From: Planctomycetota bacterium
GTDB taxonomy: Bacteria; Planctomycetota; UBA1135; GCA-002686595
Assembly (NCBI GenBank): GCA_002686595.1
Contig: NYXZ01000096.1
Coordinates: 3,296 to 46,561 of the forward strand
Reading direction: 5' to 3'
Length of the DNA stretch: 43,266 bases
This document shows positions 4,570 through 19,516 of the stretch, piece by piece (positions within the stretch are counted from its first letter, which is position 1; the number at the start of each line of letters is the position of its first letter). Made by a program: the position numbers and the translations under genes. The notes beneath the pieces were generated by a model. It had not been told where the DNA came from. It worked only from the letters and a program-made list of their open reading frames with translations, and did not search any database.

Positions 4570-5127
4570 TCAGGCACCGGCCGCCTTGGAAGGAGCGCGG
4601 TCGCTGGAGCTGGGCAAGCGTTCCCGGGCCGAGGCCGGGGGCAGGGACTCCCAGGAGATCTGGAAGCCCAGGAACCAGGCAAAAACGACCAATTCCAGGT
4701 CAGCCCGGCGTTTGATCTCGATGGTTCCCGCGCGTCCCAGGAGGCCCAGGCGGATGCGGGCCATTTCCCCGGTGCGCGGGGCCACCAACAGCCAGCCGCG
4801 GCCCCAGCCGGGCAGGGGCAGGAGGCGCAGGGCCTTCTGCCCCGTGGACAGGGATACCTCGCGGCGGCGGACGCTCCAGCGCAGGCTGGACCCGAGCCAT
4901 TCGCGGGCCTCGGTCCAGAGGGAGAACTGGCTGCGCAGGAGGCCTGGATCGCGGCGAATCGAGAGCTGCTCGCCCTTTTCCGGCTGGTATTCGCCGGCGA
5001 CCACCATGCCCCACATGTTGCGGCGCACGCGCACGGTGCCCACGGGCCCGTCGTCGCCGGATATGCGGTGGGTCGTGTTCCACAGCCCGGAGACCCGGAC
5101 TTGGAGGTTCTTGTCGGATTGACTCAT
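4570..5127 (-). CDS. Conserved-looking hypothetical protein
   Basis: An unrecognised protein of 185 residues. Its N-terminal two thirds alternate short beta-strand-like segments rich in Arg, Trp and Val, for example VRVRRNMWGMVVAGEY and LRWSVRRREVSL. That pattern fits a small beta-rich domain that begins by positioning a ligand or lipid surface, but no family can be named. Residues about 142-162 (LELVVFAWFLGFQISWESL) form one hydrophobic stretch that may be a membrane segment near the C-terminus. The tail is Ser/Ala/Arg-rich. The ATG at 5127 gives MSQSDKN. The carboxypeptidase-regulatory-like gene follows on the same strand after a 117-base gap. Confidence 0.6.
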   Translation of the reverse strand: MSQSDKNLQVRVSGLWNTTHRISGDDGPVGTVRVRRNMWGMVVAGEYQPEKGEQLSIRRDPGLLRSQFSLWTEAREWLGSSLRWSVRRREVSLSTGQKALRLLPLPGWGRGWLLVAPRTGEMARIRLGLLGRAGTIEIKRRADLELVVFAWFLGFQISWESLPPASARERLPSSSDRAPSKAAGA

Positions 5128-17082: not shown

Positions 17083-17443
17083 CTAGAGAGAATGCTTCGC
17101 TGTGTGAGGCTCCCCTGAGCGTTTGCAGACGTGATAGCTCGCGAGGAAAAGGACCGACTCAAGAGTCCAGACCCCCAGGAGAAGAACCATAACGACTGAG
17201 ATTGGATTGCTCATCAAGTACCACTTACAGCAGGACAGGCGAACCCGCCCTTCGGTGATTGGATCGGTAGGAATACTCGGTCCCTTTCCTGAGGTTTCCT
17301 TCCGTTTGGGTTGCTTCGCTAATCGAGGCAGGATTTGAAACGCGGAGCAGCCCTTGAGGTTTGTAAGGAATGGGCGAGATCATGCGGATAAAGCCGAAAA
17401 GGGCGGCGACCCGAAGGATCTTGTCCAGTCTGAAATCGGCCAT
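17083..17443 (-). pseudogene. Probable decayed minus-strand reading frame with a membrane segment
   Basis: From an ATG at 17443 the minus strand reads MADFRLDKILRVAALFGFIR. A +1 shift around 17380 joins a second frame that stays open to the TAG at 17083. It reads through KQPKRKE and a Thr/Pro-rich stretch to MSNPISVVMVLLLGVWTLES, then VLFLASYHVCKRSG. The last part, from the ATG at 17214, is by itself a 43-residue ORF with one clear transmembrane helix. Either that small membrane protein is real or the whole is a frameshifted relic. Local base composition is less GC-rich than the neighbours. It overlaps the uncertain 5' end of radC on the other strand, so both cannot be fully intact. Confidence 0.3.
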
Positions 17444-18152
17444 GGAAGATCCTGGTAAAAGTGAGGTTTTGACCCCCGTCTGCGACCAAGTGCGGGGGAG
17501 GACTGGCAAAGCGGTCCTGGCCCGGGGGTGTAATGGCACCGAGAAGGGGTGCGCGGGGGGCGACCCACCGTGGGGGGAGTTGCTCGGGCCGGCTGGGGAG
17601 TTGGCGGAGGAGTTGGCCGGGCGTTGGGGCCTGGTGGAGCTATCCCGGTGGAGCGCGGCGGAACTGCGCCGGGCAGGGGGGCTGGCTCCAGCGGCCTCCA
17701 GGCGACTGGCGGCGGCCTTTGCCCTGGGCCGGGCCGTGGAACGGGACTGCGGGCCCCATCGTGTGCCTCTAAGGAGTGCTGAGGCGGTTTATCGCCTGAT
17801 GGCGCCGGAACTGCGGGGCCTGCGCCAGGAGACCTTCCACACACTGCTTCTGGACACGAAGCACCGCCTGCGGGAGCGCATCAGGGTGAGCGCAGGCACC
17901 CTTTCCACTTCCCTGGTCCATCCCCGAGAGGTCTTCGGCCCGGCCGTGCGGGGAGGAGCGGCGGCGATCATCGTGGTGCACAACCATCCGTCCGGTGATC
18001 CCAAACCAAGCCCGGAAGATCAGGAAGTGACCCGGCGCCTCTTGCGGGCCGGGCAACTACTGGGGATTCCACTCCTGGATCATCTCGTGGTGGGCAACTC
18101 AAGTTGGGCGAGTTTGCGCGAAACGATGGACTTTGTGCCGGCAACTGACTGA
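17442..18152 (+). CDS. radC: RadC-family JAB/MPN+ protein
   Basis: A 236-residue RadC/UPF0758 protein. The N-terminal part contains a helix-hairpin-helix-like segment (VELSRWSAAELRRAGGLAP). The C-terminal JAB1/MPN+ domain has the full metal-binding motif HNHPSGDPKPSPED (around residues 180-193) after the family stretch EVFGPAVRGGAAAIIVVHNH. Historical links to recombination repair are weak; the family is often found near mobile DNA and its biochemical role is unsettled. The start is uncertain: the frame is open to an ATG at 17370, the ATG at 17442 gives near-usual length, and the first 50 residues are not family-like, so a later GTG is possible. The stop lies at the first A-tract of the phased array. 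Confidence 0.82.
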   Translation: MEDPGKSEVLTPVCDQVRGRTGKAVLARGCNGTEKGCAGGDPPWGELLGPAGELAEELAGRWGLVELSRWSAAELRRAGGLAPAASRRLAAAFALGRAVERDCGPHRVPLRSAEAVYRLMAPELRGLRQETFHTLLLDTKHRLRERIRVSAGTLSTSLVHPREVFGPAVRGGAAAIIVVHNHPSGDPKPSPEDQEVTRRLLRAGQLLGIPLLDHLVVGNSSWASLRETMDFVPATD

Positions 18153-18286
18153 AAACAGCGCACAAGGTGCTGAATGCGATACAAATGGGCCCTAAATGGC
18201 TGGGATGATGTCTGATATCGCCAAAAGTGTGAAGAACACGGCATGTCGGGTGCCATATCTGCGCAAAACTGGCACGAAGCGGCCAA
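18151..18286. repeat. Phased A-tract array I
   Basis: From the radC stop onward, short A-runs preceded by G, C or T recur at starts 18151, 18163, 18172, 18182, 18193, 18204, 18214, 18222, 18231/34, 18242, 18254, 18264, 18276 and 18284, a mean spacing of about 10.2 bases. Runs of three or four As are at 18151, 18182, 18193, 18222 and 18264. Spacing near the helical repeat predicts intrinsic DNA curvature. It is less regular than array II. Confidence 0.6.
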
Positions 18287-18304
18287 CATGACTCTGTTTG
18301 CGCC

Positions 18305-18577
18305 GTGGCCGTGGCCAAGGTCCAAGCCGTGGAGATGCCTCGCTTGGCCTCGGAGTCCGTTGAAAAAGGGCCGTGGCGAGTCGCATCCACCTGGTCGGTT
18401 GCCGGGGCCTGTGATCTCCACTGCCCTGGCTGCTGGAAAGCGACGGATAGCGAGGAAGCCAGGGATATAATCGGACGTGAAAGTGCCGGAAGTGTGCGGA
18501 AGGCGCCTGAATCGCGCAGGAAAATGGCTGAGTCTGGCCGAAAACTGGTAGTAACTGGCCGAATCTGGCCACAATAG
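18305..18577 (+). pseudogene. Fragment resembling a radical SAM N-terminus
   Basis: The GC-rich block between the two A-tract arrays contains an open frame from a GTG at 18305. It reads WRVASTWSVAGACDLHCPGC followed by WKATDSEEA. CDLHCPGC is C-x3-C-x2-C, the cluster-binding motif of radical SAM enzymes, and the preceding hydrophobic strand is also typical of their first beta-strand. The frame then runs into array II, becomes Arg/Ser-rich and stops at 18577. No other part of a radical SAM domain is present. It may be a gene relic or a chance match. Confidence 0.25.
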
Positions 18578-18720
18578 GAGTGATCGTGCTGAAAAGGGAG
18601 CAGATCGGTACGAAAAGGCGAGAATCTGGTGAAACAGTCGGAAAACTGCCGGGAACTGGGTCACTAATGCCCGCAAACGATGGAAAGCTGCCTGATATCA
18701 GTCAGAATGTCGCAGGAAGG
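18479..18720. repeat. Phased A-tract array II, about 10.3-bp period
   Basis: A degenerate unit close to GAAAACTGGC recurs about 24 times. Unit starts fall at 18479, 489, 499, 509, 520, 530, 540, 551, 561, 572, 582, 591, 603, 612, 622, 631, 641, 653, 664, 673, 683, 694, 705 and 716, a mean step of 10.3 bases. Runs of three or more As (18479, 18520, 18540, 18591, 18612, 18631, 18641, 18673, 18683) all sit at near-integral multiples of one helical turn. Such phasing should bend DNA strongly. The array fills the convergent gap and enters the last codons of rsmE. Confidence 0.8.
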
Positions 18721-19516
18721 CATCTGCCAGGACTGCCGCTGCGGATTCCGCGGCCGCTTCTACCCTTAACACATGAGGCGCAAGAGCAACCGGCGTCAGG
18801 CCAGCGGCGGCGGCTTGTTCTTCCTCAGCCGATTCGAGGCCACCCTCCGGGCCCAGCAGAATGCGGAGACCGGGCGGGCGGGGTAGGGAGCGGGCCCAAT
18901 CCCCCAGGCTACGGGGGGCGCCGGGGGTGAGCACGGCTCCGGGGTGTGGAGCGGTGCCAGATGGCCTTGTGGTGGCCAGGAGATCGGCCAGGGCCGCCGG
19001 GGGAGCTATTTCCGGGAGCCAGAGGCGGCCGGACTGCTTGCAAGCGGACTGGGCCACGCGCAGGAGGCGTTCCAGGCGGCCCTGGCCCGGCGATCCATGG
19101 GGGCCTGAGCGGGCGGTGAGCAGGGGCTGAATGCGGGCCACGCCTAGTTGGGTAAGGCGGTCGATAAGGGCTTCGGCGCGCTGGGGGCGCGGCCAGGAGA
19201 GGGCCAACTCCAGTTCTGGTAGGGCTGCGCCGGGGGTGCCGGGGGCGGGGGCGGTGGTGGGCGGTCCTAGGATCTCCAGTTCCAGGTTGCGGCGGCCCAG
19301 GGAGCTGATCACCAGGGGCCACGCGCTGCCCCGGCCATCCAGGCCCTGGATACGGTCGCCGGGGCCGAGGCGCAGGACGGTGATGGCGTGGGCGGCATCG
19401 GCCGGGAGCAGGACTGGCGCGTCTGGGGCGGAGCCAGGTTCCAGGAAGAAGCGGGGCGGCTGGGAGGTGCGCGTCACGGGCAGATTCTGGAGTGGAGGGC
19501 GGCCGCGGACAAGCAT
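18698..19516 (-). CDS. rsmE: 16S rRNA m3U1498 methyltransferase RsmE
   Basis: A 272-residue SPOUT-fold methyltransferase that modifies uridine 1498 of 16S rRNA with SAM. The N-terminal PUA-like part begins PPRFFLEPGSA and has HAITVLRLGPGDRIQGLDGRG. The C-terminal trefoil-knot domain has the family motifs ALIDRLTQLGVARIQPLLTARS, LLRVAQSACKQSGR, LLGPEGGLESAEEEQAA and LAPHVLRVEAAAESAAAVL. The length is slightly above the usual 240-250. The ATG at 19516 is used; a GTG at 19477 (VTRTSQPPRFF) would give a more typical N-terminus. The 3' end overlaps the phased A-tract array. The FHA operon starts divergently 315 bases upstream. Confidence 0.92.
   Translation of the reverse strand: MLVRGRPPLQNLPVTRTSQPPRFFLEPGSAPDAPVLLPADAAHAITVLRLGPGDRIQGLDGRGSAWPLVISSLGRRNLELEILGPPTTAPAPGTPGAALPELELALSWPRPQRAEALIDRLTQLGVARIQPLLTARSGPHGSPGQGRLERLLRVAQSACKQSGRLWLPEIAPPAALADLLATTRPSGTAPHPGAVLTPGAPRSLGDWARSLPRPPGLRILLGPEGGLESAEEEQAAAAGLTPVALAPHVLRVEAAAESAAAVLADAFLRHSD

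Follow-up and report, generated by a model that had tools for sequence, protein, structure and literature searches.

Helical periodicity of A-tracts in bacterial DNA is usually a faint statistical signal of disputed purpose. In an uncultivated member of the Planctomycetota, it is concentrated in one short locus, which raises the question of whether a run of units spaced at one helical turn marks a site kept for the shape of its DNA or a tandem repeat that has decayed. The window analysed here, a stretch of 43,266 nucleotides, lies on contig 12 of a fragmented 3.38 Mb assembly, which is 86% complete and in which no 16S rRNA was found. The locus has a clear unit, polarity and period, so that predictions of curvature, wrapping hand and protein occupancy are testable on one piece of DNA. 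If neutral, it would be a clean example of a 10-base tandem repeat imitating a designed bend. The array fills the gap between the convergent genes radC and rsmE, and the final 27 bases of rsmE fall within the phased stretch. The features discussed below are as follows.

17370–18152, plus strand: radC-like gene with a JAB domain (PF04002, E 4.7e-41), converging on the array
18121–18292, plus strand: array I, about 16 units oriented like those of array II, period 10.22–10.26, the first units overlapping the 3′ end of radC
18293–18435, no strand: interrupting block, without trace of the unit and scoring no better than shuffles
18344–18397, plus strand: decayed left end of a dispersed MITE-like element, 79–89% identical to other copies in the genome
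18436–18478, plus strand: irregular lead-in of array II, four units of 10–12 bases with weaker phase
18479–18724, plus strand: core of array II, about 24 units (24–25) of GAA(A/T)(C/G)(T/G)G.C., period 10.24, TT absent
18698–19516, minus strand: rsmE-like RNA methyltransferase gene (PF04452, E 3e-31), converging on the array

Array II is phased to the DNA helix

The initial annotation, made from the sequence alone, described a degenerate unit recurring in step with the helix over positions 18479–18720, and its placement, unit and phasing all hold, the phasing proving more pronounced than was described. Periodicity of the letter A in this segment peaks at 10.25 bases with a power of 35.4; for 2,000 shuffles that preserve dinucleotides, each taken at its strongest period between 2.5 and 40, the mean was 7.1 and the highest value 15.4. 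The mean step, first put at 10.3, is better given as 10.24 (support range 10.19–10.30), the finer fit yielding a power of 34.5 at the peak against 10.6 at 10.0 and 9.5 at 10.5. Runs of three or more As were said to sit near whole numbers of turns, and every such run in 18480–18686 indeed lies within 0.12 turn of one common phase. G+C is likewise phased (power 24.9 at 10.24). The A-runs thus recur at the helical period well above shuffles, as in phased A-tract clusters.

The earlier count of about 24 A-tracts is sound as a count of units, but less so as a count of tracts: most units of array II contain only AA, a few contain no AA whatever, and array II belongs, together with array I, to a larger array. 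In a ten-state circular model, which also yields the unit given above, unit lengths are 10 or 11, once 12 and never 9; the roughly 11 departures from 10 bases are all to 11 or 12, with none shorter. Retention is uneven along the unit, the two As and two Gs being kept in about 70–80% of cases and the other positions in 35–50%. TT does not occur in either array; for array II, the chance of this by shuffling is about 0.001.

Whether this is a tandem repeat in the ordinary sense has two answers. Unit identity is 0.32–0.49, where copies of an ordinary repeat would be about 70% alike or more, and Tandem Repeats Finder reports just 3.6 copies (18534–18570), so the initial annotation was right that copy likeness is too low. 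At the same time, the array does share one polar unit in all letters and in a single orientation. Likeness between units hardly drops with distance, and no super-unit of 31 or 41 bases was found, identity having no peak at every third or fourth unit.

Arrays I and II look like one array

Several lines of evidence tie the two arrays together. Their periods are 10.24 (II) and 10.22 (I). A model trained on array I, the left half of array II or the right half of array II recognises the other two (z 4.6–7.0, above all 300 shuffles), whereas the block at 18295–18436 scores like its own shuffles under the same models. In a profile search of the scanned genome with array II, the second-best place is array I. 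At a period of 10.24 the two arrays are in phase to 0.04 turn across the interrupting block, an agreement with a chance of about 8% that is sensitive to the exact period and is suggestive but weak. Because each predicts the other, the two share a period of 10.2 and are in step, and neither has TT, arrays I and II are kin; they have the look of a single array of about 44 units, interrupted by foreign sequence with a decayed MITE end.

Within that block, 18344–18397 corresponds to the left terminus of a short dispersed element (CTAGGAGTCCGTTGAAAAA... ...TTTTTCAACGGGCTCCTAG), for which this genome has at least 26 further matches. The remainder of the block matches nothing, the left element end being its only recognisable part. 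Most simply, the array would be the older component, into which an insertion came later and has since decayed.

The short-element family has inverted ends of the form CTAGGAG(T/C)CCGTTGAAAAA and many copies in the genome (e.g. L002:1502–1708, L004:840–1018, L034:7201–7389). The TAG of the terminal CTAG ends an open frame of more than 100 codons in 22 of 50 intact termini, counted over stretches that partly overlap, versus 436 of 1,928 ordinary CTAGs, which suggests that these elements often abut or supply gene ends.

Conserved sequence and probable selection on helical register

Degeneracy of the unit had been taken to mean selection on phase rather than on sequence. This is half right. The shared non-integer period and the absence of 9-base units agree with it; phased non-A letters and the absence of TT do not. 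In array II, non-A letters depend on phase (chi-square 40.7 versus 17.9, p = 0.001), also when letters adjoining an A are excluded (p = 0.003). When the model was refitted after shuffling the non-A letters alone, the real array scored about 5 standard deviations above the shuffles. Non-A letters of array I match the array II profile (p = 0.02); in array I by itself, their phase dependence is not significant (p = 0.055). The unit is degenerate, polar and conserved in its non-A letters too, not in phase alone. Since these letters are phased and TT is missing from both arrays, the polar unit holds sequence beyond what pure curvature needs.

It is quite possible that the array is neutral. A 10-base unit near GAAACTGGCC could have expanded once by slippage in free intergenic space and then mutated, the helical spacing being a by-product of unit length. 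We rank this account close behind that of a curved, wrap-prone site, which is set out below. A unit still visible in the non-A letters, with strict polarity and no TT, is what such a history would leave. It is harder to see why both arrays should stand at 10.24 rather than 10.0, with insertions only: a higher-order unit of 31 or 41 bases would naturally give 10.25–10.33, but none was seen. Plain decay of a 10-base repeat is hard to reconcile with these three features, and the uneven retention and the almost flat likeness over distance also speak against it. Taken together, the shared non-integer period, the lengthening-only departures and the lack of a super-unit favour, without proving, selection on helical register.

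The array is confined to a single locus

The array had been called unusual, and the scans bear this out. In 200-base windows across the 1.88 Mb (56%) of its own genome that was scanned directly, array II reaches a power of 29.8 and array I 20.1, and the next place 13.9. Elsewhere, power rose no higher than 13.3 in E. coli K-12 (200 kb scanned) and 14.7 in a set of 80 other prokaryotes (626 kb), so that nothing comparable was seen. A sequence model of the array was run over the genome that carries it, 60 relatives, 154 genomes from the same order, the class and, as a sample of the phylum, 392 genomes; it returned the array itself alone at E < 0.01, with few candidates scored per genome in the larger panels, where weak or differently worded arrays would escape. 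Four weak matches in other genomes have E values of 0.03–0.05, and the two of these that were read are without an array. DNA comparison revealed no phage relatives.

Many relatives retain the convergent radC–rsmE pair, in most cases with ends that are short or overlap. The initial annotation had proposed looking for arrays in the convergent gaps of relatives; none was found in the radC–rsmE gaps examined. As it is missing from every examined relative that keeps the pair, the array is not required for it. The array is a single locus, not a general feature of convergent gaps. This confinement, with relatives lacking the array, is also what neutral expansion would predict.

Viral contigs bear on the same point. 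They carry tandem arrays, short and clean, whose 10-base units (GAAAC...) closely resemble the one described here and span one helical turn each. These arrays lie in unrelated gene settings, with no common gene apparent beside them; some lie inside coding sequence, and the pattern itself was what selected them. Examples are GAAACTGGCA, repeated four times in tandem in L196, and GAAACTGACT in L199/L205, and arrays are located at L196:1232, L199:13635, L201:722 and L204:4163. Their existence in unrelated settings shows that 10-base units of this kind expand by themselves, in keeping with a neutral origin.

In the closest relative searched (G017; L050, reverse strand), the radC–rsmE gap is 209 bases long and contains an almost perfect inverted repeat, whose arms of about 40 bases pair at 35 of 40 positions and leave no loop between them; longer imperfect flanks are rich in C+T and in A+G. 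This is a different yet likewise striking solution in the same convergent gap.

Coding and RNA-level readings

A 198-codon open frame on the minus strand (18080–18676) was considered and rejected as coding sequence, its composition being flat by codon position. G+C by codon position is 0.51–0.55 in all six frames of the array, versus 0.67–0.81/0.44–0.60/0.74–0.79 in the neighbouring genes. All minus-strand frames are long here because stops need T on the plus strand.

A terminator region was among the roles first suggested. For an intrinsic terminator this finds no support: no GC-rich hairpin followed by a T run occurs in 18000–18850. Across the window no Rfam family matches at gathering scores, and RNA structure on either strand of the array is not unusual (z −0.4 and −1.0). 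Alternatively, a C/U-rich minus-strand transcript downstream of rsmE might serve as a Rho loading region, the reading to which we give the least weight of all. The minus strand is richer in C than in G (33% versus 20%), lies directly downstream of rsmE and has no intrinsic terminator. However, its RNA does not fold more loosely than the shuffles do (z −0.4), the periodicity of YC dimers is weak (power 5.8), and a 10.24-base period is superfluous for an RNA site.

Genomic setting and centromere-like sites

The seven neighbouring genes encode a kinase, a CxxCxxCC protein, a peptidase, RadC, RsmE, an FHA protein and PilM. This setting matters for the idea that the array resembles an operator or centromere, on which a sequence-reading protein would bind one unit per turn and form a filament or ring, as ParR, TubR and omega do on iterons. 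The analogy has some appeal: the units are polar, bear sequence and span one helical turn each, there is one copy per genome, and the two blocks with a spacer recall the split sites among parC/tubC-type plasmid centromeres, whose direct repeats are also about one helical turn apart (PMC5016525). Those centromeres, however, have well conserved iterons adjoining the gene of the binding protein, whereas the unit here is very degenerate and there are no partition genes among the seven neighbours identified, which are of the radC, rsmE, FHA and PilM kind. The array departs from a parC/tubC-type centromere on both counts, and we regard the operator- or centromere-like reading as unlikely.

A further idea, unlikely in our estimate, is that the array is a single-copy chromosomal cis-site, a bacterial site for wrapping or anchoring of a kind not described so far. 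Its polar phased units would direct one protein either to wrap about 450 bases of DNA between converging genes or to polymerise along them.

Predicted curvature and proposed wrapping

That phased A-tracts curve the DNA here, as the initial annotation held, is well supported by the sequence. In a model that counts AA only, the array region exceeds every other part of the window in curvature. In a wedge model, it is among the most curved and at 120 bases ties with a site at 4662. Predicted curvature is thus among the highest of its surroundings, as in phased A-tract clusters. One caveat to these models is that one of two controls, an 11.5-base repeat, was mis-designed. Tracts of AA alone bend DNA weakly.

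The weak AA/TT signal of the genome as a whole peaks at about 11.5, on the usual bacterial side, and has a trough at about 10.4–10.5, so the array is not local background. Periods below 10.5 have been linked to toroidal or solenoidal wrapping of DNA around protein (PMC4132750). Being below the 10.5 of relaxed DNA, the period of 10.24 fits a toroidal wrap better than plectonemic DNA.

We tentatively favour, over any other single reading, a site of curved DNA that is prone to wrapping and lies where two transcription units meet. In this scheme, a 10-base unit would have expanded locally in the radC–rsmE gap and then been held in helical register, at 10 or 11 bases and never 9, because curved DNA matters there; an insertion including the MITE end would later have split the array in two. 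The array may nucleate wrapping by a nucleoid protein, with an HU-family protein as candidate, where the two transcription units converge. The wrapped array could then fix a bend or loop apex and take up torsion at the point of convergence. Counting against wrapping are the conservation of non-A letters and lack of TT, the absence from relatives, the MITE remnant and about 140 bases lying inside the array, and the many AA-only tracts. Phasing, polarity, the shared unit, the kinship of the two halves and uniqueness are, by contrast with this scheme, directly shown.

Torsion also enters a further possibility, very unlikely in our view, that the array loads DNA gyrase to relieve positive supercoiling where polymerases converge. 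Around their cleavage sites, gyrases favour G+C that recurs every 10–11 bases across a stretch of about 120 bases (PMC12324340), and the array has periodic G+C in a convergent gap; both show helical periodicity of base composition over more than 100 bases. Gyrase sites are statistical preferences, however, not long repeat arrays, and gyrase wraps DNA with the opposite hand, for which we would expect a period at or above 10.5. If the role were general, other convergent gaps should also show an array, but none of those scanned does.

Among known bent DNAs, the closest comparison in bacteria is with the clustered A-tracts and the AA/TT periodicity described for intergenic DNA (Hosid et al. 2004, PMC516772; Abel and Mrazek 2012, PMC3431218), which share helix-phased, intergenic A-runs that are local rather than genome-wide. 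Those clusters have a period of about 11, make no distinction between AA and TT and are found at many loci; the array has a period of 10.24, A on one strand only, one locus and a repeat unit, and is much stronger. Bent DNA is also found in the kinetoplast minicircles of Crithidia fasciculata, where, as in the array, a long run of phased A-tracts extends for about 200 bases and keeps largely to one strand. The minicircle is eukaryotic and mitochondrial, with longer A-tracts, and no common ancestry is claimed.

As to proteins that might wrap DNA, this genome has an HU-family gene on contig 138 and no match to the histone fold PF00808. The HU-family protein (L206:1366–1887, minus strand) has a proline-rich C-terminal tail. 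On contig 86, an endonuclease III-like protein (L165:19019–19924, minus strand), with a cysteine cluster motif read by eye, has as its last part, over more than 100 residues, a histone H1-like tail rich in lysine and alanine. Finally, contig 103 has a tandem array of its own at the contig end (L181:1–240), made of near-identical units around CCCGCGGAACGCGGCCCGGAAGGC.
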